64,000 nt of DNA from Planctomycetota bacterium (GTDB lineage Bacteria; Planctomycetota; UBA1135; GCA-002686595): contig JAJDET010000163.1 in the NCBI GenBank assembly GCA_029259655.1, positions 1-64,000 of the forward strand, given 5' to 3'. A program made the position numbers and the translations under genes. Position 1 is the stretch's first letter, and each line of letters starts with the position of its first letter. Positions 1,862 through 14,579 of the stretch are shown piece by piece. The notes under the pieces were generated by a model. That model saw only the letters and a program-made list of their open reading frames with translations. It made no database searches and had not been told where the DNA came from.

Positions 1862-2902
1862 GTGAAGCGTGGAAGCGGAAGAAGGCGTGTGGGGCTCTGG
1901 GCGGGTACCGCCCTGGGGCTCCTGGTCGGCATCGGAGCGCTCGCCGGCGCCGGTTGCCGCTCTCTATCCAAGGTGGAGATGGAGCGCGGGCTGCGGGCCC
2001 TCCCGAAGAACGCGCCGCTCGGAGCCTTGACGAGGTCGGACATGGCCTTCGAGGTCGACGGCGAAGCGCGGACGTTCGAGCTCGTCTACCTGCACGAGCC
2101 GGCCCGGCGCGAAGGCGGGCCCGTCGATACCATCCCGGTGGTGCTGGTCCACGGCACTCCCTCGACGCTCTTTTCCTGGACGGAGCTCGTCTACGGTGGC
2201 GAGGGGTTCGTGGGCCTGTCCGCGACCCACGACGTCTACGCGATCGAGGTGGTCGGGCACGGCATCGCCCCCGGGGACGCGGCGCCGTACGGCTTCGAGC
2301 GCGCGGCGCGCTTCGTGGCCTCGGCCATCCGCGCCCTTGGTCTCGAGCGGGTTCACCTCGTCGGCTCTTCCTATGGCGGCGAGTTCGTGTGGCGCGCCGC
2401 GCTGAACGAACCGGATCTCGTCGCCGGCCTGGTGCTCCTGGACTCGGCGGGCTACGCGCGTCGCGATCGGGACTGGCTCCCCGAGGAAGAGCTGATGCGC
2501 GACAGCTCCCTCGCCAAGCTCGGCTGGATGCTGAACTCGAAGGACCGCATCACGACCGCTCTCGAGCCGCACTTCGACACGATCCCTCCCGGTCGGGTGG
2601 AGGAGTTCTTCCTCGTCTGCGACAACGCGCACAACTGGAAGGCGATGATCGACCTGGCGCGCGACGAGAACGGCGACCGCGAGAACGAGCTGGCGAACAT
2701 CCAGGCTCCGACGCTCGTGCTCTGGGGCGAGGACGACATCGCCTATCCGCTCGAGGTCTACGGCCGGCGCTTTGCCGAAGACATTCCCGGCGCCGAGCTC
2801 GTCACCTTTCCCGACACGGGCCACTACCCGCACGAGCAACGCCCCGCCGAGGTGCTGGCGGTGATGCGGAGCTTCTTCGGATCGATCGACGAGACGCCGT
2901 GA
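1862..2902 (+). CDS. alpha/beta hydrolase, probably membrane-anchored or secreted
   Basis: A GTG at 1862 gives 346 residues starting with a basic stretch and a hydrophobic segment (residues about 11-31) ending in AGAGC. This could be a lipobox, although it fits poorly, or a simple membrane anchor. The hydrolase fold is clear: VLVHGTPS near 94-101 (oxyanion loop), GSSYGG with nucleophile Ser170, LWGEDD with acid Asp291 or Asp292, and DTGHYPHE with His321. An upstream in-frame ATG at 1733 would overlap the divergent DUF1295 gene and adds low-complexity Arg/Gly sequence, so the later start is preferred. The substrate is unknown. The stop overlaps the next gene's GTG (GTGA). Confidence 0.85.
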   Translation: MKRGSGRRRVGLWAGTALGLLVGIGALAGAGCRSLSKVEMERGLRALPKNAPLGALTRSDMAFEVDGEARTFELVYLHEPARREGGPVDTIPVVLVHGTPSTLFSWTELVYGGEGFVGLSATHDVYAIEVVGHGIAPGDAAPYGFERAARFVASAIRALGLERVHLVGSSYGGEFVWRAALNEPDLVAGLVLLDSAGYARRDRDWLPEEELMRDSSLAKLGWMLNSKDRITTALEPHFDTIPPGRVEEFFLVCDNAHNWKAMIDLARDENGDRENELANIQAPTLVLWGEDDIAYPLEVYGRRFAEDIPGAELVTFPDTGHYPHEQRPAEVLAVMRSFFGSIDETP

Positions 2903-3948
2903 CCACCGCCCTGTCACGCTCGCTCGCCTTTCTCACGCTGACGCTCTCGGCGCCTGCTGCGCAGGACTTCGAGGTGGAGGCGCAGCCGCTCTCCTGGAGC
3001 GAGCTCCCGACGGTCTTCGACCGCTCCTGGACGCTCCCCGAGCGCCCGCGCGAGTCCCGCGATCTGCTTGGCGAGATGCGCCGCCTCGCCGAATTGCGCT
3101 TCGAGATCGACCTGGGCGAAGGCCCCGAGGAGCGCACTCTCGGCGACCTCGTCGCCATGTCCCGGGAGCTCGATGCAGGGGCCCGGGTCGCCTGGCTCGA
3201 CGACCTCCCGCGCTTTGCCCCTCGCCTGATGGCGGATTGGGGCGAGGGGCTGCGCGAGCTGCTACTCGAGGACGAGCTCTTCTCCTCCGATTGGGATCCG
3301 ACGAAGGATCGCGCCCGAGACGGCCTCTTGACCGCGGACGACTGGCTCCTCTCCAGCTCTCACGGCTCGCCGTGGAGCGAGCTGAAGTCCCCCCGCTTCG
3401 CACAAGCCGCTGCGCTGTTCGTCGCCGACCTTCCGGCGATCAAGGCGGCGGAGAACGACTACCGCGCCTACCCGGACAACCCCGGCTCCCAGTACGAGGA
3501 GATCAACCCCGAGCGCGGCGGCCACTTCCGCGGCACCGCCCCCGACGGGAACCCGTTCTCCACGCTCTCGATCCAGTTCCGCTGCGACCTCCCGTTTCCC
3601 TTCTCCGGCTACGATTGCCGGCTCGGAATCCTGAATCGCATCGATTCCGACGGCCTCGTCCGCACCGACATCTACTCGACGAGCTCCGACTTCTATTACC
3701 TCGCCGGCCGCGACGTCTTCCTCCCGGTCAGGAGCTCCAGCGGTCGCCAGCTCGCCTTCCTGGTCGTCCGCCACTTCGGCTTCGACCTCCGCCGCGTGCC
3801 GGACAAACCCAGGCATCGTTCGGAAGGCGTGCGCAGCAGCCTGGGCAACCTCAAACGCAACGCCGAGCGCCGCTTCCGCGACCGCGGCGAGGCGTTCACG
3901 CCGTCGCCGGAAGCCATCGGAAACCTCCGCGTCCTCGGCCGCGACTGA
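2899..3948 (+). CDS. secreted protein of unknown function
   Basis: A GTG start at 2899 overlaps the hydrolase stop codon, giving 349 residues. The N-terminus is a typical signal peptide (LAFLTLTLSAPAAQ, cleavage probably after AAQ). The rest is soluble and acidic in the first half, with an aromatic-rich central part (NDYRAYPDNP, YDCRLGILNRI) and a basic tail. I do not recognise the family. The overlap with the hydrolase gene indicates co-expression. Two Cys residues in the central part could form a disulfide after export. Confidence 0.75.
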   Translation: MTTALSRSLAFLTLTLSAPAAQDFEVEAQPLSWSELPTVFDRSWTLPERPRESRDLLGEMRRLAELRFEIDLGEGPEERTLGDLVAMSRELDAGARVAWLDDLPRFAPRLMADWGEGLRELLLEDELFSSDWDPTKDRARDGLLTADDWLLSSSHGSPWSELKSPRFAQAAALFVADLPAIKAAENDYRAYPDNPGSQYEEINPERGGHFRGTAPDGNPFSTLSIQFRCDLPFPFSGYDCRLGILNRIDSDGLVRTDIYSTSSDFYYLAGRDVFLPVRSSSGRQLAFLVVRHFGFDLRRVPDKPRHRSEGVRSSLGNLKRNAERRFRDRGEAFTPSPEAIGNLRVLGRD

Positions 3949-3958
3949 GCAGAGCCGA

Positions 3959-4426
3959 ATGAAGCGGAAGTCTCTCCTCGTGGTCGGAATCACCCTGGTA
4001 CCCCTGGTCGTCCTCGCGCTGGGTGTAGGCGCGGCACTCGTGTCGCACCGGCCGGTCGAGGTAGGACTCGTCGACGGTCGCCTGCGCCCCTGCCCCTCCT
4101 CACCGAACTGCGTGAGCAGTGAGCCCGCAGACGCGGCGTCCGTCCCTGCTCTCACCTTCGCCGGTGATCCGACGCTGGCCTTCCGTTCACTCGTCGACTT
4201 TCTCGGCGCTGAGTCGAATGCGGAGATCCTCGACGTGGGCGACGGCTACATACACGTCGTCTACTACACACGCTTCATGAAGTTCGCCGACGATGTCGAG
4301 TTCCGTCTCGACTCGCAAGCGAAGCTCATTCACGTGCGCTCGGCATCCAGAATCGGACACTCCGACCTGGGGACGAACCTCGCTCGCGTCGAGAAGATTC
4401 GGCGCCACTGGACGCCTCCGATCTGA
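3959..4426 (+). CDS. DUF1499 family protein
   Basis: The protein has 155 residues, with a basic start and a hydrophobic N-terminal membrane segment (about residues 5-28). RPCPSSPNCVSS near residues 42-53 is the hallmark of DUF1499, and the C-terminal part (VEFRLDS, IHVRSASRIGHSDLG) matches the rest of that domain. No biochemical function is established for this family. It starts 10 bases after the preceding secreted-protein gene and may belong to the same transcript. Confidence 0.85.
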   Translation: MKRKSLLVVGITLVPLVVLALGVGAALVSHRPVEVGLVDGRLRPCPSSPNCVSSEPADAASVPALTFAGDPTLAFRSLVDFLGAESNAEILDVGDGYIHVVYYTRFMKFADDVEFRLDSQAKLIHVRSASRIGHSDLGTNLARVEKIRRHWTPPI

Positions 4427-4744
4427 TCGACGTCGAGATCCACTGGGCGAACTGTTTCCCGCGGTGCGGGGCGAGGCTCTTGATGGAACCTCCCTTGACC
4501 GCGTACGGAGTCGCACACCACCCGGCGCACTTCCGACAAGAAGTACCGCGAGCAACCCGGCCGTCGTGGACGACCTCGACGCCCTGGACGCGGCGGGGCT
4601 CCTGACACCGGAGGTCGAGCTCCTGAGCGCGGAGCGGAGTGCGGACTACGAGAGCGGCACGTCGACCTCGATGCGATACCCCTCGGGTGGGACCGTTGAT
4701 CGCGACCTCGCGCTCGCCTGCTGCGGCACCAACCGAGGAACCTG
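4427..4744 (+). other. scrambled stretch: repeat left end, then a fragment of the maturase N-terminus, then a repeat-derived piece
   Basis: There is no intact gene here. From 4504 the sequence TACGGAGTCGCACACCACCC begins a copy of the inverted-repeat element found at 9084, but it breaks off near 4555 and no right end follows. At about 4563-4655 one frame reads VVDDLDALDAAGLL, which resembles the segment that precedes the CxxxCxxC core in SPASM maturases. At 4656-4683 a 24-base piece (GCACGTCGACCTCGATGCGA...) is identical to the interior of the 322-bp element. The radical-SAM gene body resumes at 4745. Confidence 0.6.
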
Positions 4745-5740
4745 ATGTTCTTCGTGACCGAGGCCTGCGGAGACTCTCAAGACCGGTTGGAGCGAGCGAC
4801 CGAGACCAAGCAACAGGTCGGCTTCACGATGACCTCGAACCTGACCCTCTTGACCGAGGACATGGCCGAGTTCTTGGCGCGCGAGAAGTTCCACGTGATG
4901 GTCTCGATCGATGGTGATCGCGAGAGCCACGATCGGCACAGGGTCACGGTCTCCGGCGAGGGCACCTACGACACCACGGTCGCCAACCTGAAGCTGCTGG
5001 TCGGCAAGATGCGCCTGCACGGGACTCGTCTTCCGAAGATCCGCGCGACGATGACGGCCGGTAACGTCGATCCGGTGGCCACCGAGGAGCACCTTCGCTC
5101 CCTGGGCACCCACCTCGTCGAGGTGGGCGAGTCGCACGGAACCGTCAACGAGCAGCAGGACTACGACGTGGGGTCCAAGTGCGAGGAGAGGATGAACTCC
5201 TTCAACGCACGCATCGACTCCATTATCGAGCAGCTCGAGGCAGATCCTTCGGTGCTACCCGATGTCGGAAACAGCCTTCGCAAGAGCCTCCGCAAGGTCC
5301 ATGACGAGGTCACGCGTAAGCAGGCCTATTCGCAAGCTCGCCCCACCCTGTGCGGAGTGTGCCGGAACATGAAGGCCGTCACTCCCGAGGGCGATCTCTT
5401 CCCGTGTCACCGGTACGTGGGAATGGAGGCGTTCAAGATGGGGAACATACACACCGGCGGGATCCAGCAGGATCGAGTTCGTGACTACTACGACGCGCTC
5501 TACACGACCTATGCCGAGAAGTGCGCACCTTGCTGGCTGCGGCATCTCTGCGGTGGCCAGTGCCCCTGGTACCTCTCCAGCGAAGATGGCGCCATATCCC
5601 CTCCCGACGACGCCACGTGCGACGACATCCGTGACGGCTTCGAGGTGCTGCTGGGGTTCTACGCGACCCTGATGTCCCGGTTTCCGGAGGCGTTGGCTTC
5701 GATCCTCGGAAGACCGATCCCCGTTGAAGGTAAGGAGTAG
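4745..5740 (+). CDS. SPASM-domain radical SAM maturase, N-terminally truncated (QhpD/SCIFF-maturase-like)
   Basis: The open frame of 331 residues begins inside a radical SAM barrel: GFTMTSNLTLL near residue 27 and VMVSIDGDRESHDRHR near 52 are standard barrel strands. The C-terminal SPASM domain is intact, with CGVCRNM, PEGDLFPCHRYVG, CAPCWLRHLCGGQCPW and a final Cys in ATCDDIRDG providing ligands for auxiliary iron-sulfur clusters. The N-terminal CxxxCxxC cluster that binds SAM is absent; it should lie about 100 residues upstream, where repeat-derived DNA now sits. As read, the product should not be catalytic. Enzymes of this type form thioether cross-links from Cys to Asp or other residues in a partner peptide, and the next gene is rich in D-x-D-C. 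Stop and next start are 3 bases apart. Confidence 0.75.
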   Translation: MFFVTEACGDSQDRLERATETKQQVGFTMTSNLTLLTEDMAEFLAREKFHVMVSIDGDRESHDRHRVTVSGEGTYDTTVANLKLLVGKMRLHGTRLPKIRATMTAGNVDPVATEEHLRSLGTHLVEVGESHGTVNEQQDYDVGSKCEERMNSFNARIDSIIEQLEADPSVLPDVGNSLRKSLRKVHDEVTRKQAYSQARPTLCGVCRNMKAVTPEGDLFPCHRYVGMEAFKMGNIHTGGIQQDRVRDYYDALYTTYAEKCAPCWLRHLCGGQCPWYLSSEDGAISPPDDATCDDIRDGFEVLLGFYATLMSRFPEALASILGRPIPVEGKE

Positions 5741-5743
5741 GCT

Positions 5744-6547
5744 GTGAAAGACGAGTCCACTGAATCCGCAGACGAGCGTCCCGAAGACCGCGACGAAGAG
5801 CCGAAGCAAAGAAAGTCGAGCCGGCGTGATGCGCTGAGGAAACTCGGGACGATGAGCTTCTTGACGGCCGCGTGGATCAAGTTCGGCCCGGCACCGCGAG
5901 CGCAGGAGACTCCTCCCGACGACCTCTGTTGCGAGCCTGTCGGGGGGATTCCGGACTTTGCCGACGTCACGCCGCTCCCCGAGCCGAATCCTGGACCGGA
6001 TTGTGCGCCGGAATCTCCGGTCACCGTCGTGCCCGATGTGGATTGTGGGCTACCGAACGCGGGAGGCAATCCGGTCAACATCGAGGACCTCGACTGCACG
6101 CCGGCCGCTGAGTCTCCCTCGGATGCCGACTGCGGCAAGCTGAGCGTGGGAGGAAACCGTTACGCCGATTCCGACTGCACGGCGACAGGAGCGGACAATC
6201 TCTGTTCGCAGAAGCTGCCACCCCAGCAGGGCTATCCGATCTTTGCGGGAGACTCCGACTGCACGACCCCGAACGGGTCGGACCAGGACTGCTCTCTTCG
6301 GAGCTCGCCCACCACCTTCCACAAGGACAACGAGTGCGACACTTACGACGGCGACTGCGGCCTGCCTTCACCAGGCGGCGGAGTCCACCAGGACTCGGAC
6401 TGTGTTTCTCCCGGAGAGCACACGCAGGACAGTGACTGCAACAAGCTGATTCCGGAACCGAACTACCTTGGTCTCTCCTACAAGGACAATGAGTGCTGGA
6501 GCGTCATCGAGGGGTGGGTCGACAACGACGATGGAACCGGTGATTGA
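5744..6547 (+). CDS. Tat-exported protein with about 13 D-x-[D/E/L]-C motifs, probable maturase substrate
   Basis: A GTG start at 5744 with TAAGGAG just upstream gives 267 residues. After a very charged leader, SRRDALRKLG and a weakly hydrophobic stretch ending in PRAQ look like a twin-arginine signal. The mature part has about 15 Cys, and all but two are in the form D-x-D/E/L-C: DVDC, DLDC, DADC, DSDC (four times), DQDC, DNEC (twice), DGDC and others, separated by Gly/Pro/Ser-rich linkers of roughly 10-25 residues. No known domain is visible. QhpD-type enzymes install Cys-to-Asp/Glu thioether bridges, so this periodic pairing of acid and Cys next to a SPASM gene suggests a modified, exported multi-bridge protein. 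Function unknown. Confidence 0.75.
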   Translation: MKDESTESADERPEDRDEEPKQRKSSRRDALRKLGTMSFLTAAWIKFGPAPRAQETPPDDLCCEPVGGIPDFADVTPLPEPNPGPDCAPESPVTVVPDVDCGLPNAGGNPVNIEDLDCTPAAESPSDADCGKLSVGGNRYADSDCTATGADNLCSQKLPPQQGYPIFAGDSDCTTPNGSDQDCSLRSSPTTFHKDNECDTYDGDCGLPSPGGGVHQDSDCVSPGEHTQDSDCNKLIPEPNYLGLSYKDNECWSVIEGWVDNDDGTGD

Positions 6548-6604
6548 GGGGATCGCCTCGCAATCTCCGACCAAGATCGCGTTCGGGTTCACCCAGTGGC
6601 GCCC

Positions 6605-9082
6605 ATGCGGAAACGCCTGAACACCGGGATCGGCCTCGCCGCACTGGCCGTAGTCGGCCTGGCCTGCTTGTTGTGGGGCCCTTGGAGCCTCCCCACCTCG
6701 GCGGTACCCGCCCCTGTGCTCGCAACGCCGGCCTCGTACAGCGAACAGCTACCCGAAACAGGTAGCCGAGCGTCCGCAGAGAGGGCTCGCCGATTCCCGG
6801 CCCCAGCTTCGACAATCGCTTCGTCGCAAGGCAGCGACGACGCTTCGCTCGGTCTCGAGATCGCCATCTTCGCGCGATTCGTCGACGAGCACGATCAGCC
6901 CTTGGCGACCGTGCGATTGTCGATGAACAACGGGCTTCGTCGCCTCGAGTCGATTAGCACGACCGACGGGCGAGCACAGTTCCTGATCGCATCGGATGAC
7001 CGGCTTCTCGACAACGACCTCGTGCTGGAGTTCGAGAAGCAGGGACGAATTCCCGTGCGCCGGACGTTGAGCCGTTCCCTGCGCGAGTCTCACGACTTCG
7101 GTAAGGTCCAACTCCTTCCTGCGGGAACCCTGGTCGGTCGTGTTCTGGATGAGCAGGGCATGCCCGTCGTCGCGCAGATTTCCGCTGCGTTCTCACCCGC
7201 CCCCATGTCGGAGAGCGATCGGGAGCGGCAGTTGCACCTGGGCATCGGCCTGGAGCTAGCCACTGCAGAGTCGAGGACGGAGACCGATGGAACCTTCGAA
7301 GTATCCGGGCTCCCAGGCGGGACGTTTGTGATCGTCGCGCGGATCCCCGAGCATCCGCGCGCGCTCAGCAGCCCGGTCGACCTGCACCCCGGTTCATCGC
7401 GGAGTGTCGGCGCGCTCGTGATGCGCGAGGCCAAGCCCGCGAACCGAATCGCCGGCACGGTCCTGACACCGGAGGGGGTGCCGTTCGCGGACGGCATCGT
7501 CGAGCTCTGGGTTCCCGGCGCTGCACGCAACGCCAACCCGACCGCGGCTCGGACTCGCACCGGAGAGAACGGCATGTTCGTGTTCTCGGTACCGTCCCGC
7601 AGCCGTTTTCACGTAGTGCTCGTCGACGAGCGCACGCGCGAGGAACGGATTCGCCTGAACAACGTCGTTGCCGGTGGAGCCCCGGTTCAGCTCGTCGCCC
7701 CCGAAGTACGAATCGCACAGGTTCGCGTCTCGAGTAGCTCCGGGGCGGCGATCGAGGGAGCGTTCATCGCCGCGACCGATCTCGATGGGGTCGGCATTCG
7801 ACTGGAGCCCACGTCCCCCGAACCGGGGCTGTGGCGTTTTCCCGTTCCCACCCGCCCCTTTCAGCTCTCCGTCGGAGCACCAGGTCACGAGCTGGAACAC
7901 CTTTCCGCTCACGATCCGACCACCATCGAGAGCACTCTCGAACTCACGCTTCGACCGACGAGGGTTGCGCGCATCCGAGGCGTCGTCTCTCGGGACGGAG
8001 TTCCGGTAGCTGGCGCGAAGGTGGCCGCGTACCGGCGATTGGAGGGCCCGCACCGGCTGTCTACCGGCTTCGGAACGCGGGTCGAGGCGAGTCCCATCTC
8101 GGAGCTCGCAAGGACCGACAAGAGTGGGCACTTCGAGCTCGCGAACCTCCGAGAGAGAGCCCTCGTGCTGCTGGTCCGTCACGGAGGCGAGATCGCGCTG
8201 GAGTTCGGTCCGGTTCCCGTCGATCGGGGCGACACCGTCTGGAAGTTGCCGCTCCCGATGCCGGGAGAGGTCCGTGGCCGCGTGCTCCTGGCAGAGGGTC
8301 GCGATCCCCGCGGCCTGATCATCGGTGCGAGCCGGGGCGACGGAGAGGTGCGGGCGATGAGTCTAGAGGCCGACGGCAACTTCCACTTTGCGCGGCTGGC
8401 CCCGGGCGACTGGCAGGTGCGGTGCATCGAGCCGGGACTCGGTCGAGTGAGCGATCGGACCGCGCACCCCTCGCGCACCCGGCCTCGACCGCAGGTTCGG
8501 CTCGCCTCCGGAGAGTCCACGGAGATCCAGCTCGACCTTCGTTACCAGGAGCGGCGGCACGTTCGCGGTTACATCACCGCGGCGCCTGACGGTCCGACGC
8601 GGTGGACGATGGTCCTGGACGGTCGCGAGGTGCGCGTCGGCCCCGACGGCCGGTTCAGCGCGGAGCTCTTCACGGCGCGACGCCCCGTGCGCCTGGCGCT
8701 CCGGGGAGCCTACGGCCCGAGTGTCTCTCTGCTCGTGGAAGATCGGCTGGACCTGGATTCCGAAGACAACGAGTGGAATCTGGACCTGCGAACCGGAGTC
8801 CTCGAACTCCACAGTGTTCCGGCATTCGACATCCATCCCGCACGAGGCGGCTCGGATCCCGTAAAGGTGAAGCTCGAGCAATCAGGACCGGAGGGCCGTC
8901 GCACGACGATCGACGTCTCGGCTCACGGCGGCGGTCCGCTCGTCCTTCGCGGCCTACCTGTAGGCCTGTACGACTTGCACTTCCGCGACGAGACAAACGG
9001 TCGCGATCCGGATGGAGCCGAGTCCTGTCGCACTTCGCTCGAGCTACTGCCTGGAGAACACAAGGTCGTCAGCGTGCGCTGA
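6605..9082 (+). CDS. large secreted or membrane-anchored protein with carboxypeptidase-regulatory-like repeats
   Basis: The start chosen is the ATG at 6605 (MRKRLN), giving 825 residues; a GTG at 6596 would add three. An N-terminal membrane segment (IGLAALAVVGLACLLW) is followed by repeated beta-sandwich units. Each begins like GTLVGRVLDEQGMPV, IAGTVLTPEGVPFADG or IRGVVSRDGVPVAGAKV and ends with FxxxxLxPG or FxVxLPxG phrases typical of carboxypeptidase-regulatory/transthyretin-like domains. These usually mediate surface adhesion or assembly, not catalysis. It lies 57 bases after the D-x-D-C protein and on the same strand, so it could be its partner or anchor. A 322-bp repeat element begins one base after its stop codon. 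Confidence 0.8.
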   Translation: MRKRLNTGIGLAALAVVGLACLLWGPWSLPTSAVPAPVLATPASYSEQLPETGSRASAERARRFPAPASTIASSQGSDDASLGLEIAIFARFVDEHDQPLATVRLSMNNGLRRLESISTTDGRAQFLIASDDRLLDNDLVLEFEKQGRIPVRRTLSRSLRESHDFGKVQLLPAGTLVGRVLDEQGMPVVAQISAAFSPAPMSESDRERQLHLGIGLELATAESRTETDGTFEVSGLPGGTFVIVARIPEHPRALSSPVDLHPGSSRSVGALVMREAKPANRIAGTVLTPEGVPFADGIVELWVPGAARNANPTAARTRTGENGMFVFSVPSRSRFHVVLVDERTREERIRLNNVVAGGAPVQLVAPEVRIAQVRVSSSSGAAIEGAFIAATDLDGVGIRLEPTSPEPGLWRFPVPTRPFQLSVGAPGHELEHLSAHDPTTIESTLELTLRPTRVARIRGVVSRDGVPVAGAKVAAYRRLEGPHRLSTGFGTRVEASPISELARTDKSGHFELANLRERALVLLVRHGGEIALEFGPVPVDRGDTVWKLPLPMPGEVRGRVLLAEGRDPRGLIIGASRGDGEVRAMSLEADGNFHFARLAPGDWQVRCIEPGLGRVSDRTAHPSRTRPRPQVRLASGESTEIQLDLRYQERRHVRGYITAAPDGPTRWTMVLDGREVRVGPDGRFSAELFTARRPVRLALRGAYGPSVSLLVEDRLDLDSEDNEWNLDLRTGVLELHSVPAFDIHPARGGSDPVKVKLEQSGPEGRRTTIDVSAHGGGPLVLRGLPVGLYDLHFRDETNGRDPDGAESCRTSLELLPGEHKVVSVR

Positions 9083-9083
9083 G

Positions 9084-9405
9084 TACGGAGTCGCACACCA
9101 CCCGGCGCACTTCCGGCAAGGAGTGCCGCAGCACTCGAAACCGTCCCTGGCTCTTCACGGTCGTCCGGGTGCCAGGGCACGTCGACCTCGATGCGATACC
9201 TCTGGGAGAGGGCACCACGTCATCAACTCCGCGATCGCCAAGCGCTTGTACTTCGAGTACTCGCTCGGAGAAACCCTACTCGATGTCCGTGTCCGCGATC
9301 GCTCACGAAGCCCCCGCGGTCACGATGCCCGCTTGAAGCCGGGCTGCATTGAGAATGGTGCGGCACTCTTGGGAGGGAGAACTGCGGGTGGTGTGCGACT
9401 CCGTA
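9084..9405. mobile_element. MITE-like inverted-repeat element, long form (copy B)
   Basis: The element begins TACGGAGTCGCACACCACCC and ends with its reverse complement; the ends match perfectly for about 21 bases and imperfectly for about 55. It is bounded by TA on both sides, as expected for IS630/Tc1-mariner-type target duplication. It encodes no transposase. Its length of 322 bp and its sequence are nearly the same as the copy at 9977. It sits one base after the stop of the upstream gene. Confidence 0.8.
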
Positions 9406-9411
9406 CGGTCG

Positions 9412-9699
9412 TCACGAACGGACGGAGTCAACGACGTCGTCCACGGCCTTCTTGAATTCACTCCAGGCGCTGGACAGCTCTTCCGAGGTTCGCTCCCAGC
9501 CGCTGGCCGCGCTGTCTCGGGCGGAGGCGAGCTTCGCCTCGAGCTTTGCGCGCTCCTGACGAAGAGCGGCGCGCTTCTGGTCGAAGACGGCGCGCTTCTC
9601 GTCCTTCTTTGCGCGCAGCTTCTCCTCCTTGGCGTCCAGGGCTTCGTCCCACTCTCTCAGCTTGCGTTCCAGATCGTCGATCATCTTCTTGCGGTCCAT
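9412..9699 (-). CDS. small coiled-coil protein (sll1863-like stress-response type)
   Basis: The protein has 95 residues, almost all Ala, Glu, Lys, Arg, Asp and Leu in heptad-like order from residue 3 to 70, so a long coiled coil is expected. It has no Cys and no membrane segment. The C-terminal part (WSEFKKAVDDVVDSV) resembles small cyanobacterial sll1863-type proteins. The start MDRKKM follows GGAGG on the minus strand. It lies between two copies of the repeat element and may depend on its own promoter. The role is not known. Confidence 0.7.
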   Translation of the reverse strand: MDRKKMIDDLERKLREWDEALDAKEEKLRAKKDEKRAVFDQKRAALRQERAKLEAKLASARDSAASGWERTSEELSSAWSEFKKAVDDVVDSVRS

Positions 9700-9976
9700 G
9701 TCATTCCTCCCGCGATTTCAATGGGTTCCGTGTGAGGCTATCCGCGTTCACTTTTCCTTCGAGGGGAGACTCTCTGTGAGCTCGCGACGCAGCTGCGATG
9801 TCACGCCGACCAGCTCCTCGCGCAGGATTCATCCGGGCTCCGAGGATACGATGCAGCGCCCGTACCGGGCCCGCGACCTTCGAGGGGGCCGACGGTACGA
9901 AGCGTCATCGTCGGGGCCTTCGCGGAAAGGGGCGGTGCGGATGCGCTCCACGAAGAAAAAGAGGCGCCTTCTCGAG

Positions 9977-10298
9977 TACGGAGTCGCACACCACCCGGCG
10001 CACTTCCGGCAAGGAGTGCCGCAGCACTCGAAACCGTCCCTGGCTCTTCACGGTCGTCCAGATGCCATGGCACGTCGACCTCGATGCGAGACCTCTGGGA
10101 GCGGGCACCACGTCATCAACCCCGCGATCGCCAAGCGCCCGTACTCCGAGTACTCGCTCGGACAAGCGCTACTCGGTGTCCGTGTCCGCGATCGCTCACG
10201 AAGCCCCCGCGGTCACGATGCCCGCTTGAAGCTGGGCTGCATTGAGAATGGTGCGGCGCTCTTGGGAGGGAGAATTGCCGGTGGTGTGCGACTCCGTA
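9977..10298. mobile_element. MITE-like inverted-repeat element, long form (copy C)
   Basis: This copy has the same length (322 bp) and nearly the same sequence as the copy at 9084, with the same TACGGAGTCGCACACC ends and flanking TA. The differences are scattered single bases. The stretch 9700-9976 just upstream holds no gene that I can support. The element ends 7 bases before the 3' end of the toxin-antitoxin operon. Confidence 0.8.
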
Positions 10299-10304
10299 CC
10301 CCCG

Positions 10305-10625
10305 TCATGCCGACCGCCTCCCCTTGCGCGGCACGAGTCGGATCTCCAGCCGGTTGTCGAGCGCCACGGCGATGCGAACCAGGGTCGAGAGGGAGTGCCC
10401 CTCGTAGTCTGCGCTCTCGAGCCGGGCGATCGCCGACTGGGTCGTGCCGATGAGCTCGGCCAGCTCCTTCTGCGTCAGGCCGGCCCGCTCTCGCGCTTTC
10501 GCGATGAGCATCGCCACGCGCAGGTTGGCCACCTCCTCGTCGACCGCGCGCCGCAGATCGGCGTCGCTCCCGATCATCCGATCGGTGATGTCGACCGCGC
10601 TTCGACGCCTCTTCTTCCTGGCCAT
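10305..10625 (-). CDS. XRE-family antitoxin (HigA-like)
   Basis: The protein has 106 residues. A helix-turn-helix of the Cro/C1 type spans about residues 45-95 (RAGLTQKELAELIG, TTQSAIARLES, LSTLVRIAVAL). The N-terminus is basic. Its ATG overlaps the stop of the upstream toxin gene by one base (TGATG), the usual toxin-first order of HigBA systems. The likely role is to neutralise the toxin and repress the shared promoter. Confidence 0.88.
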   Translation of the reverse strand: MARKKRRRSAVDITDRMIGSDADLRRAVDEEVANLRVAMLIAKARERAGLTQKELAELIGTTQSAIARLESADYEGHSLSTLVRIAVALDNRLEIRLVPRKGRRSA

Positions 10626-11008
10626 CAGTCAGCGCCTTCCTCGTACGTGTGAGCGTCCGGGTCGAGCTCGAAGGCTCTCTTTCGCTCGAGCGCGCGCTTC
10701 ATGTCAGCGACCGGGATTGCGGCCTCCTTCGTCAACGCATGCGCCAGCACCGCGACGCTTCGGCCAGAGAAGAAGTAGAGCATTCGGTAGTTCACCCGGC
10801 CGTGGCGCACGCGAAGCTCGTGGATGCCCTCCCGGACGGAGTCCGCGACCGGTCGACGAAGCTCGTAGCCCTGCTCGGCGAGCAATCTCAGACGCGCCAC
10901 GCATTTCGCAAAGACCCGCTCGTCCGCCAGCCTCAGGCCCTGCAGCCAGACGAGGACCGGAGCCATTCCCGCATCGTCTAGATAGAACAGCACTTCGGTT
11001 TCGGGCAC
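10625..11008 (-). CDS. RelE/HigB-family toxin (phage-derived Gp49-like)
   Basis: A GTG start gives 127 residues. Features of the RelE/HigB fold are visible: ADERVFAKCVARLRLLAEQG helices, LRRPVADSVREGIHELRV, then NYRMLYFFSGRSVAVLAHALTKEA, and a basic C-terminal half. Members cleave mRNA at the ribosome. The gene is first in a two-gene operon with the XRE antitoxin downstream. All parts expected for a full-length toxin are present, so the pair could be active. Confidence 0.87.
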   Translation of the reverse strand: MPETEVLFYLDDAGMAPVLVWLQGLRLADERVFAKCVARLRLLAEQGYELRRPVADSVREGIHELRVRHGRVNYRMLYFFSGRSVAVLAHALTKEAAIPVADMKRALERKRAFELDPDAHTYEEGAD

Positions 11009-11027
11009 GTCGCATGCTCTGCACTAT

Positions 11028-11043
11028 ATCACAATATTGCGAT
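11028..11043. promoter_or_regulatory. putative operator of the toxin-antitoxin operon
   Basis: ATCACAATATTGCGAT is a near-palindrome (two mismatches) in an AT-rich island 20 bases upstream of the toxin start. This is where a HigA-type repressor would bind. Inferred from position and symmetry only. Confidence 0.5.
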
Positions 11044-11237
11044 CCAGCACGGCCGCCCCCGTGACCGCTTCGACTCCCACCATCCGCAACGGGCCCGGAA
11101 CACCCGCTGTCACGGCGGCGCCTCCTCATGACCGCCCCGGGGGAGGATGGGTTGCGTGCTTCTTCCGAGTCTTGTGCGTCGCACCGTGCCGCGACTCCTG
11201 ACCAGCGTCGGGTGCGTCGGATTCGGCGCCGCGGGCA

Positions 11238-11420
11238 CTACATCCCGGGAACCACGATCACGCTGCGCCCGTTTCCTGGCGGTCTGGACATCCGGAAGAT
11301 CCTCGGCGGCATCGCCATTCCGCCCACGAGGCGCATGGGATGACCGCCGTCCTCGAAGCGTCGGCACATCTCGTCGAACACATCGTGGTGAGCTGGAAGT
11401 GCCGCGCGAGCGGACCCGGA
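11238..11420 (-). pseudogene. unidentified gene remnant, possibly the start of an alpha/beta hydrolase
   Basis: The interval 11044-11445 has no intact gene. One minus-strand frame ending at a TAG at 11238 reads coherently: HDVFDEMCRRFEDGG, then MRLVGGMAMPPRIFRM and GNGRSVIVVPGM, then the stop. The last phrase resembles the first strand and oxyanion-loop region of lipase-like hydrolases (RPVLVLPGF...), which would mean the rest is missing. The assignment is weak. The interval also carries the upstream side of the toxin promoter. Confidence 0.35.
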
Positions 11421-11445
11421 CTCGAGCGGACTACCGCGGACCCGC

Positions 11446-12243
11446 TCAGCGAGCCGCCCGGAACCGTCCCGGTGGCAGTCCGAAGCGCCGTCGGAAGGTG
11501 CGCGAGAAGTGGCTCTGGTCGCAGAAGCCGGCCTCGGAGGCGATGTCGGCCAGGTCCCGGTCGGTCACCGTCAGCTGCTCCGCTGTCCACGACAGCCGCA
11601 GGTCGCGGACCAGATCGCCGATCGAGCGTCCGTACTGGCGGCGGAAGACCCTCCCGAGGTGGTCGGGATGCACGCCCGCCGCGGCGGCGAGCTCGGCGAT
11701 CGACAGCTTGTCGAGGTAGTGGGAGCGGACGCGGTCGTGGACGTCGCGCAGCCACGCCGGCGGACGGTGCGCGGGCTCGCCCGCGATGCTCGCGCGCATC
11801 GCGAGCCCGACCAGTTGCAGGGCGATCCCTTCCAGCACGATGTCCGAGGCCGTGTCGCGCGCCGCGAGCTCGGCGGCGATGCGTCGTGTGAACCCGAGGT
11901 CGGCCGGTCGGTGTCCGACTCGTTCGAAGAGGGATGCGCACGCCTCGAGCGAGCTCTCCGCGGTGTGCACCAGCTCGACGATCAGGCAGCGCGCGCCCGC
12001 CGGTCCGAAGCGCGTGCGGTGGCGTGCTTCCGCCGGTTTGATGACGAGGTTCCCGCGCCGGCAGTCCACGTCCTGTGAGCGGAAGGACTCCTGCATCCCG
12101 CCGTCCAGCAGCAGCGTCATGCACCCGTTCCGGTGCACGTGCCAGTCGAGGCGCCCGTCGGGAGCGTGCAAGGACTCGGTGAGCCTCAGCCCGCCGAGCT
12201 CGGCGGCCCGGCCGCGCGTGCCCTGTCCGACGGGCTGGTACAT
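11446..12243 (-). CDS. AraC-family transcriptional regulator
   Basis: The protein has 265 residues. The N-terminal half is cupin-like (LDWHVHRNGCMTLLLDGG, AEARHRTRFGPAG) and would sense a ligand. The C-terminal half from about residue 165 holds two helix-turn-helix units: LSIAELAAAAGVHPDHLGRVF and DLADIASEAGFCDQSHFSRTF, followed by FGLPPGRFR, the AraC/XylS signature. No obvious target operon lies next to it; the neighbours are gene fragments and a repeat element, so its original partner may have been lost. Confidence 0.92.
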   Translation of the reverse strand: MYQPVGQGTRGRAAELGGLRLTESLHAPDGRLDWHVHRNGCMTLLLDGGMQESFRSQDVDCRRGNLVIKPAEARHRTRFGPAGARCLIVELVHTAESSLEACASLFERVGHRPADLGFTRRIAAELAARDTASDIVLEGIALQLVGLAMRASIAGEPAHRPPAWLRDVHDRVRSHYLDKLSIAELAAAAGVHPDHLGRVFRRQYGRSIGDLVRDLRLSWTAEQLTVTDRDLADIASEAGFCDQSHFSRTFRRRFGLPPGRFRAAR

Positions 12244-12331
12244 GGTGTCGAGTCTAGCCTCGGGGCGACATTCGTGCCGGTGGCCCGCGAGAGAAGACGA
12301 GGGAAACGGCCGCGACGAGGCCCTATCCTCC

Positions 12332-12463
12332 TACGGAGTCGCACACCTACCGGTATTACTCCAACGAGAAGTACCGCAGTACTTCGAGACTTGAAGCCGA
12401 GCGGCCTCGAGGATGGTGCGGCACTCTTGGGAAGGAGAACTGCGGATGGTGTGCGACTCCGTA
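12332..12463. mobile_element. MITE-like inverted-repeat element, short form (copy D)
   Basis: The 132-bp element has the same TACGGAGTCGCACACC ends and TA flanks as the 322-bp copies, but lacks their central segment of about 190 bases. The two halves alone can fold into one long imperfect hairpin. Confidence 0.8.
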
Positions 12464-12472
12464 GGACCGAAC

Positions 12473-13009
12473 ATGAACACGGAGCTCCAGCTCGTCGTCG
12501 GCGTCGTCTGTTTCGGGACGGCGCTCGTCGTGCTCGGCACGCTGGCGGTGTTCCTGCGGCGAGCAACGGCCTCCGCGCCGGGATCCGAGCGGCGAACCGG
12601 CCGCGCCGTGCTCGTCGTCCTCGTGGTGTGGTACGGCGTCGCTCTCGTGGTGGGCTCGCGGAGGGAGATGAGCTTCGAGACGTTCCTCCCCACCGCCCTG
12701 GTTCCGATCGCGGTCGGCTCGGCGCTCACCTTCACCTCGCGCGGAAGGGCGCTGCTCGTCCGGGTGCCGGTTCACTGGATGGTGTTCCTCCAGGTCTACC
12801 GCGTCGCCGGCGGGGTCTTCGTCTACCTGTACTACGCCGGCGACGGCGTCCTGAGTCGCGGCTTCGCGCTGAACGCCGGCTGGGGCGACGTCCTCACGGG
12901 GGTGCTCGCGATCCCGGTCGGCATCCTGGTGATGAAGCGCATCCATACGGAGTCGCACACCTCCCGGAGTTTTTTCGCCGAGAAGTACCGCAGCAAGATC
13001 GAAACTTGA
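12473..13009 (+). CDS. polytopic membrane protein, 3' end replaced by a repeat element
   Basis: The native start is the ATG at 12473, ten bases after element D. About 157 native residues run to 12945 and contain at least four hydrophobic segments (LVVGVVCFGTALVVLGTLAV, AVLVVLVVWYGVALVVG, ALVPIAVGSALTF, VFLQVYRVAGGVFVYLYYAG). At 12946 the frame enters repeat element E, which adds 20 foreign residues (TESHTSRSFFAEKY...) before a stop. The true protein was probably longer. The family is not recognised. Confidence 0.6.
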   Translation: MNTELQLVVGVVCFGTALVVLGTLAVFLRRATASAPGSERRTGRAVLVVLVVWYGVALVVGSRREMSFETFLPTALVPIAVGSALTFTSRGRALLVRVPVHWMVFLQVYRVAGGVFVYLYYAGDGVLSRGFALNAGWGDVLTGVLAIPVGILVMKRIHTESHTSRSFFAEKYRSKIET

Positions 13010-13078
13010 AGCCAGGCGGCTTCGAGGATGGTGCGGCACTCTTGGGAGGGAGAGTTGCGGGTGGTGTGCGACTCCGTA
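12946..13078. mobile_element. MITE-like inverted-repeat element, short form (copy E), inserted in a gene
   Basis: The 133-bp element has the TACGGAGTCGCACACC ends and a TA duplication. It interrupts the membrane-protein frame at its left side, and its right end lies two bases from the stop codon of the convergent gene at 13081. Confidence 0.82.
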
Positions 13079-13080
13079 TG

Positions 13081-13740
13081 TCACTCGAGCCCGCGCCGGA
13101 GCAGGATCAGGCCGAACGCCGCCATCCAGAACGCCTGCAGGTGGAACACGGGCTCGTAGACCCAGAACGCGTCCGCCGAGGCCATCACGACCACGATGGC
13201 CGCCAGGCCGTCGAGGCTCCCGATCCAGCCGACCCAGGCTGGGACCAGCTTCCACTTCAGGAGCCCGAGGTTCAGCACGAGCAGGCCCAGGCCGGCGAAG
13301 AGCCTTCCGAACCGGACGAAGCACGTGACGAACTTGGTGTCGAAGCGAATCGACGCCAGGTACGCGGTGACCGCCTCGTCGGGCTTCCCGGCCAGCTCGA
13401 GCGAGCCCCAGTACCCGTGGTGGTAGTAGAAGGCGCACCCGATGGCGTAGGCGAAGGCCCCCCCGGCGACGACCGCGGCGCCGGGCCAGATCATCACGCG
13501 CGACGGGCTCGGTAGCACCAGCGCCGCCAGCGCCACGACCGCCATCGCCGTCAGCACCGCGCCGAAGAAGTAGGAGCGGTACGCCCAGACGAAGAGGTAG
13601 CGGTACTCGTCGACGACGGCGAAGTCTCCGGCCTCGACGTAGGGTCCGACGTCGACCGGGATCAGCATCCATCCGCCCCACAGCATGGCCACCGCCGCCA
13701 GGAAGACCCAGCCGGTGAACCGCGTCGCGAACGTGTCCAT
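13081..13740 (-). CDS. polytopic membrane protein of unknown function
   Basis: The protein has 219 residues with about six hydrophobic segments (WVFLAAVAMLWGGWMLI, SYFFGAVLTAMAVVALAALVL, VAGGAFAYAIGCAFYY, FAGLGLLVLNLGLL, LDGLAAIVVVMA, FWMAAFGLILL). Charged loops carry DEYRYLFVW and RFDTKFVTCFVRFGRL. I do not recognise the family with confidence; it resembles uncharacterised DUF4386-like membrane proteins. It is transcribed in the same direction as, and directly downstream of, the phosphatase-like gene, 25 bases after its stop. Confidence 0.75.
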   Translation of the reverse strand: MDTFATRFTGWVFLAAVAMLWGGWMLIPVDVGPYVEAGDFAVVDEYRYLFVWAYRSYFFGAVLTAMAVVALAALVLPSPSRVMIWPGAAVVAGGAFAYAIGCAFYYHHGYWGSLELAGKPDEAVTAYLASIRFDTKFVTCFVRFGRLFAGLGLLVLNLGLLKWKLVPAWVGWIGSLDGLAAIVVVMASADAFWVYEPVFHLQAFWMAAFGLILLRRGLE

Positions 13741-13765
13741 GGCTTCCTCCTCGAGGCGGATCGGC

Positions 13766-14338
13766 TCAGCGCGACTTGCGCTCGATGTAGTCCCGGGCCT
13801 TCTGTTCGTACTCCGTTGCCTTCAGCCCGACGGCCTTCGCCTCCGTCACCGCGTCGTCGACGCTCAGCCCGCCGTCGAGAACTCGGTGAGGCAGCCACAC
13901 GGCGCCGACCCGGTTGGCCGACTTGCAGTGGAGCAGGATCGGCTTCTCGGCGCTCTTCAGCATCTCGCGGGCCCGGTCGAAGACCTCGTCGGTCAGTTCC
14001 TCGGCGCCGTTCCACGGGAGGTGGAGGTAGGTCATGCCGAGCTTCTCGACGAGCGCCCGCTCGTCGAGCTCGATCTCGCCGTCGTGTCGGAGATCGATCA
14101 CGGTCGCGATGCCGCCCTTCTTCGCCGCATCGAACCCCGACTCGTCGGGCTGGCCGGCGAGGAAGACGCCGGACACCGAGTGGACCTTCTCGATCCCCGG
14201 AGCGTCGACCGCCTCGAGCGTGTCGGTGACCCGGCTGAAGTCGACGCGCGCTTCCGCCGCCTCGGCCTCGGAACCGTTCGGAGCGCAGGAGGTCGCGACG
14301 AGGGCCCAGGTGAGCGTGAGTGTGGCGGTTGCTCTCAT
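13766..14338 (-). CDS. tyrosine/dual-specificity phosphatase-like lipoprotein (BLH-type)
   Basis: From the ATG at 14338 the protein has 190 residues. A short hydrophobic signal ends in ALVATSC, a fair lipobox. The catalytic loop HCKSANRVGA matches HCxxxxxR, and LRHDGEIELDE, YLHLPWN and FLAGQPDESGF are typical of the beta-lactamase-hydrolase-like (BLH) phosphatase domain used by many secreted dual-specificity-like enzymes. Asp or Glu acid residues in the WNGAEEL loop could act as general acid. An upstream in-frame ATG at 14353 adds five residues and is less likely. It may dephosphorylate periplasmic substrates. Confidence 0.82.
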   Translation of the reverse strand: MRATATLTLTWALVATSCAPNGSEAEAAEARVDFSRVTDTLEAVDAPGIEKVHSVSGVFLAGQPDESGFDAAKKGGIATVIDLRHDGEIELDERALVEKLGMTYLHLPWNGAEELTDEVFDRAREMLKSAEKPILLHCKSANRVGAVWLPHRVLDGGLSVDDAVTEAKAVGLKATEYEQKARDYIERKSR

Positions 14339-14447
14339 CTTCTCTTCCTCCACGAGAGGCGGACGGGTCGACGCTCCCAGGCGGGAGGCTCGGCGTCAAG
14401 CCCTACAGATGCGTACCTCCTCATGGGGACGAGGACGGGATCCAGCG

Positions 14448-14579
14448 TACGGAGTCGCACACCTCCCGGAGCTACCCCGGCGAGGAGTACCGCAGGAGCT
14501 CGAGGTTCGAGGTCGGGCTACTTCGAGAATGGTGCGGCACTCTCGAGAGGGAGAACTGCGGATGGTGTGCGACTCCGTA
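14448..14579. mobile_element. MITE-like inverted-repeat element, short form (copy F), inserted in a gene
   Basis: The 132-bp element has TACGGAGTCGCACACC ends and TA on both sides. Its right end abuts the coding sequence of the minus-strand gene whose 5' part remains at 14580-14863. This is the rightmost copy in the window. Confidence 0.82.

Follow-up and report, generated by a model that had tools for sequence, protein, structure and literature searches.

Tat-signal proteins with regularly paired aspartate and cysteine residues lie beside SPASM radical-SAM enzymes in Planctomycetota and may be multiply cross-linked

The stretch of DNA analysed here, referred to as the window, is 64,000 nucleotides long (positions 1 to 64,000 of contig JAJDET010000163.1, assembly GCA_029259655.1) and comes from a Planctomycetota bacterium. 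An earlier note made from the sequence had singled out three consecutive open reading frames near its start, all of which are present:

4745..5740, + strand: truncated SPASM radical-SAM maturase ORF, covering model positions 114-131 and then 199-489 (profile of intact relatives)
5351..5620, + strand: SPASM domain within it, with seven conserved cysteines (TIGR04085, alignment)
5744..6547, + strand: Tat-signal protein of 267 aa with 14 D-x-x-C motifs, the proposed substrate (ORF list, motif count)
5822..5905, + strand: twin-arginine signal region of that protein, RRDALRKLGTMSFLTAAWIKFGPAPRAQ (sequence; RR found in all 14 homologues aligned)
6596..9082, + strand: exported-looking protein of 828 aa with CarboxypepD_reg repeats, an accessory neighbour (domain search)

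The second gene starts with a GTG codon 3 nt past the maturase stop. Its product contains 15 cysteines, and 14 of them have an aspartate three residues before (shuffled sequences: mean 2.15, maximum 9, n = 20,000). Our recount agrees with the earlier note that 13 of the 15 fall in D-x-[D/E/L]-C; the narrower D-x-[D/E]-C matches 11, where 20,000 shufflings of the mature part gave a mean of 0.42 and a maximum of 4. The acid-cysteine periodicity that the earlier note saw is real, but what stays constant is the pairing of Cys with an Asp at -3 (at -2 in one sister clade). Across 18 main-type homologues, aspartate stands at -3 for 208 of 227 cysteines (shuffle mean 31, maximum 48) and is optional at -1 (93 of 230). 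After this wider count we dropped D-x-[D/E]-C as the defining motif and use D-x-x-C. We also dropped CX3D as a cross-linking register, since aspartate at +4 is not enriched in the precursors (36 of 230, near background).

Where precursor copies have diverged, their Asp-Cys pairs are retained and the linkers drift. The L181/L182 copies keep 11/11 cysteines and 10/10 aspartates, with the remainder at 54%; the corresponding figures are 14/14, 13/13 and 44% for the L206 copies and 27/29, 26/28 and 35% for those of L103. Tandem duplicated precursors beside a single maturase occur at L021 (6678-8378), L206 (6455-9755) and L103 (5880-9660).

The N-terminus of the 267-aa protein runs from an acidic stretch through SSRRDALRKLG into a hydrophobic segment, the Tat-like signal that had been noticed earlier. 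Every full-length homologue carries such a twin-arginine signal, with a hydrophobic stretch after an RR that is invariant in 14 homologues, and TatC is encoded in 16 of 16 genomes checked, that of the window included. Together, signal and TatC suggest that the protein would be exported by the Tat system. Modelled alone, the precursor is predicted to be disordered (mean pLDDT 45). Pfam and NCBIfam searches gave no significant match for the precursors, and we found no description of the D-x-x-C protein in the open-access papers searched. Ranthipeptide calls from generic genome-mining tools may flag such loci already.

The maturase gene of the window is damaged. Its SPASM domain is intact, as the earlier note held (57 bits against TIGR04085, cut-off 27), and the alignment retains all seven SPASM cysteines, but the radical-SAM gene as a whole is not. 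Model positions 132-198, the stretch with CX3CX2C and GGEP, are missing, so that this copy has the SPASM cysteine set of a SPASM radical-SAM enzyme and lacks its CX3CX2C. Relative to L019, a 61% identical relative, the join falls directly after MFFVTEAC. The 5' end of the gene is rearranged with repeat fragments, as follows:

4504..4549, + strand: inverted-repeat element of MITE-like type, arm at one end, TACGGAGTCGCACACC... (90% identity to 9080-9129)
4551..4655, + strand: maturase N-terminal domain relic, in a different reading frame, SNPAVVDDLDALDAAGLLTPEVELLSAERSADYES; the L019 counterpart is ILDDLESLHGAGLLTPEVELVGPERQRDLE (by eye)
4656..4686, + strand: 31-nt internal piece of the same MITE-like element, inside the maturase relic (family D4, 94% to 9176-9206)

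The N-terminal relic is thus flanked by the arm on one side and the internal piece on the other. Members of the MITE-like family with TACGGAGTCGCACACC arms are 132-330 bp long; exact arm matches number 19 genome-wide, 11 of them within 4504-14579.

Because the CX3CX2C core and the 5' part are lost among MITE-like repeats, the window copy is probably inactive or misassembled. With its enzyme gene damaged, the D-x-x-C protein of this organism is probably unmodified. It seems fairly probable that the window locus is a decaying relic, with a maturase pseudogene and a D-x-x-C protein that is unmodified or disused: CX3CX2C and GGEP are gone, the frame is broken, repeat pieces are present, and we found no second maturase of the D-x-x-C clade in the draft genome. 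The intact D-x-x-C reading frame with its 14 motifs speaks against decay, as does the chance of misassembly among repeats in a draft of 376 contigs. Decay at the window would be compatible with the reading that we prefer for intact loci. SPASM-only maturase copies without a radical-SAM core occur elsewhere too, at L023 (3846-4631), L206 (9752-10969) and L103 (7962-8492), and two of these three still adjoin a precursor.

The earlier note had made its proposal depend on intact related loci, and these exist: relatives encode full-length maturases with CX3CX2C. Intact pairs include those of L021 (precursor 7506-8378, maturase 8421-9965) and L175 (precursor 3957-4817, maturase 2405-3949). A search of the same family found a maturase directly beside a D-x-x-C Tat-signal protein in six genomes. 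Five of these maturases are full length (G029, G036, G005, G053 and G076) and that of G027 is cut by a contig end. An order-wide search of 154 genomes added pairs in G114 and G126. When a precursor-only profile was run over the same 154 genomes of the window's order, nine carried a D-x-x-C protein, and in all nine its neighbour is a SPASM radical-SAM gene, always from the same clade. The co-occurrence that the earlier note had proposed to look for is thus borne out (Fisher p about 1e-13; G003 enters as a genome that has the maturase and lacks a precursor). This profile was trained on loci found via the maturase, and newly found genomes are the fairer test.

The phylum-wide sample (392 genomes) yielded two such genomes. 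In G300 the precursor lies downstream of the C-terminal half of a maturase. In G391 (locus L207) there is no maturase on the 5.7-kb precursor contig, which by eye starts with mobile-element-like genes. Of homologues without a radical-SAM gene, whose general occurrence the earlier note named as telling against the idea, this contig is the one case in the genomes sampled. Searching the phylum sample for maturases added G252 (three loci), G282, G503 and G299, with a precursor at every locus. A scan of a named collection matched mainly QhpD-type and clostridial maturases; the one new-clade member among the matches listed, a Kiritimatiellae MAG (L103), carries a maturase and two precursors. The gap between precursor and maturase is mostly a few nucleotides, and the tie between the two genes thus reaches beyond the window's order to other families of the phylum and to Kiritimatiellae. 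Presence is sparse: G503 is the sole carrier among 150 genomes sampled from its order. Searches of plasmids and phages gave no match. A strong PSCyt2 hit would fit Planctomycetota as the group to which the genomes belong.

The maturases of D-x-x-C and D-x-C loci group together (support 98) in a 107-sequence tree, which was made by a quick method with a midpoint root and contains long branches. Within it, the L180 and L103 maturases are sisters (support 99), and their precursors place aspartate at -2 (D-x-C) for 66 of 70 cysteines. Asp-Cys spacing thus appears to follow the maturase clade, the D-x-C side being represented by two maturases and three precursors. Of all the evidence, this link argues most strongly that the enzyme recognises the Asp-Cys pair. 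At L208 (601-2893), which belongs to a different family of the phylum, a SPASM maturase accompanies a twin-arginine protein with 27 cysteines in which D-x-C alternates with D-x-S-G-x-C, a third spacing grammar.

A protein so strictly paired, clade-wide, with a single clade of maturases, and with a switch in spacing to match, would be hard to explain as an ordinary exported protein that binds metal or forms disulfides and has the radical-SAM gene as a mere neighbour. The sequence is rich in aspartate and cysteine, as such a protein might be, and one precursor homologue weakly matches the MopE Cu-binding motif (E 0.048), but 13 of 14 homologues have no metal-motif match. We regard this explanation as very improbable.

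PapB and QhpD are the closest curated relatives of the maturases, but scores stay below the cut-offs of both models. Full-length maturases score 223-289 bits against the PapB model NF047865 (cut-off 340; window copy 168.6), 200-283 against the QhpD model TIGR03906 (cut-off 453) and 174-252 against the SCIFF model TIGR03974 (cut-off 425; the outlying L208 reaches 298). Members of the D-x-x-C clade fall below every NCBIfam cut-off. True QhpD controls, in contrast, score 519 (L044) and 506 (L040) against TIGR03906, and true QhpD genes of the same order (>500 bits) fall in a separate clade. As expected for SPASM radical-SAM enzymes, all intact relatives have CX3CX2C and keep the seven SPASM cysteines. 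CteB is the nearest solved structure by sequence (287 bits) and also the best fold match to the predicted structure of the L019 maturase (pLDDT 87; TM 0.68/0.83), with anaerobic sulfatase-maturating enzymes second in this predicted comparison.

Among the closest known systems is that of PapB and PapA (freyrasin, a ranthipeptide; NF047865). PapB is the nearest curated family for most of the maturases, and there too a single enzyme serves a precursor with many cysteines, each with an aspartate at a fixed spacing. However, PapA is short, a leader-core peptide bearing six CX3D motifs, whereas the precursors here carry the aspartate first, as D-x-x-C or D-x-C, in about 6-29 motifs over 150-380 aa behind a Tat signal. 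Like QhpD, which acts on QhpC of quinohemoprotein amine dehydrogenase, the maturases would be SPASM enzymes working on a protein; QhpC has Cys-to-Asp/Glu bonds and a periplasmic product. In contrast to QhpC, with three links at variable spacing, these proteins have many motifs at fixed spacing, their maturases form a clade apart from QhpD, and no dehydrogenase context was seen at D-x-x-C loci. CteB, the SCIFF maturase, shares the three-part fold of N-terminal domain, SAM core and SPASM, but its precursor CteA is a short six-Cys peptide with Cys-Thr links. The CXXX-repeat (TIGR04115) and Cys-every-fifth (NF038107) systems, to judge from their family names, presumably also place a periodic-Cys precursor beside a SPASM gene. 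The maturases score much lower against systems of this type (about 50-127 bits), and we know of no Asp-Cys pairing or Tat signal in them.

From the motif, the clade-wide pairing, the switch in spacing with the maturase clade and the predicted enzyme fold, the view that the adjacent SPASM radical-SAM enzyme has the D-x-x-C protein as its substrate is well supported. PapB and QhpD join cysteine to side-chain carbons of aspartate or glutamate (PMC9413430, PMC7876137, PMC8172795). Given this relation and the fixed pairing, we propose Asp-Cys thioethers within D-x-x-C; we infer the thioether bond by analogy, and would place the carbon attacked, export and the final role on the same footing. Taken together, a substrate with Asp-Cys thioethers inside each motif and export by Tat is in our judgement the best explanation and a reasonably probable one. 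An enzyme with a CteB/QhpD-like N-terminal domain would bind the precursor in the cytoplasm, where its SAM cluster and two auxiliary clusters would serve to abstract hydrogen from an aspartate side-chain carbon, to which the sulphur of the cysteine three residues downstream would then be joined. Repeated at about 6-18 sites, with the sister D-x-C type reaching as many as 29, this would produce a row of small thioether rings of the i/i+3 kind. The protein, otherwise disordered, acidic and rich in Gly and Pro, would leave through Tat as an envelope or extracellular component, and the bridges might help it pass the Tat system.

The order of the residues is the main difficulty. PapB is described as requiring a downstream Asp or Glu (PMC9413430), and QhpC links run from cysteine to an Asp or Glu 6-9 residues downstream (PMC8172795). 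Asp before Cys, opposite to PapA and QhpC, appears to be without precedent in the open-access literature searched; we considered streptosactin as a precedent for an acceptor before Cys and rejected it, because its order does not fit (PMC8172795). Since the order is reversed, bonds across repeats remain a real rival: the protein would still be a substrate, but its thioethers would run as in QhpC, from each cysteine to the aspartate of the next repeat, with D-x-x-C serving for recognition. The aspartate of the next motif is nearly always available, at a modal distance of 12. However, that distance varies between 2 and 36, while the step from Asp to Cys is constant at 3 (or at 2, for the sister clade), and the final cysteine has no downstream motif aspartate. 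We consider such cross-repeat bonding unlikely. Rather improbable, too, is another change at Cys or Asp (formylglycine, epimerisation or an alpha-carbon sactionine) with the pair as a recognition motif. SPASM enzymes are chemically diverse, and anaerobic sulfatase-maturating enzymes did appear among the fold matches, but PapB, QhpD and CteB are clearly nearer in sequence and fold, and a strict Asp partner suits a Cys-acid bond.

Our best reading, then, is a new family of Tat-exported proteins that would receive about 6-29 Asp-Cys cross-links in the cytoplasm from a neighbouring enzyme, and the loci suggest that exported proteins with multiple cross-links of this kind form a family not yet described. 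More tentatively, they may define an exported-protein class stapled by Asp(i)-Cys(i+3) or Asp(i)-Cys(i+2) thioether rings, acceptor before donor, by a SPASM clade whose members differ in the spacing accepted. If so, radical thioether chemistry would extend beyond short peptides to long proteins that are exported by Tat and bear ten to almost thirty bridges, the usual Cys-then-acid order would be reversed, and natural enzyme pairs one residue apart in ring size would offer a set for studying SPASM site choice. It would also suggest an unknown cross-linked envelope component in Planctomycetota-like bacteria.

The remaining neighbours vary. No recurring protease or ABC transporter gene, as associated with RiPP cleavage and export, was found among those looked at. 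CarboxypepD_reg-type exported proteins adjoin 6 of about 18 loci (the window, L022, L023, L176, L177 and L178), but clear sequence orthology among them was not found and most are unjoined by BLAST. A surface-anchor role for the third gene, as the earlier note had suggested, is thus weakly supported, and we rejected the gene as an essential part of the system. Elsewhere in the window's family, L026-L028 hold QhpD-type maturases near subtilase-like, FAD-oxidoreductase-like and transporter-like genes and are probably qhp operons.
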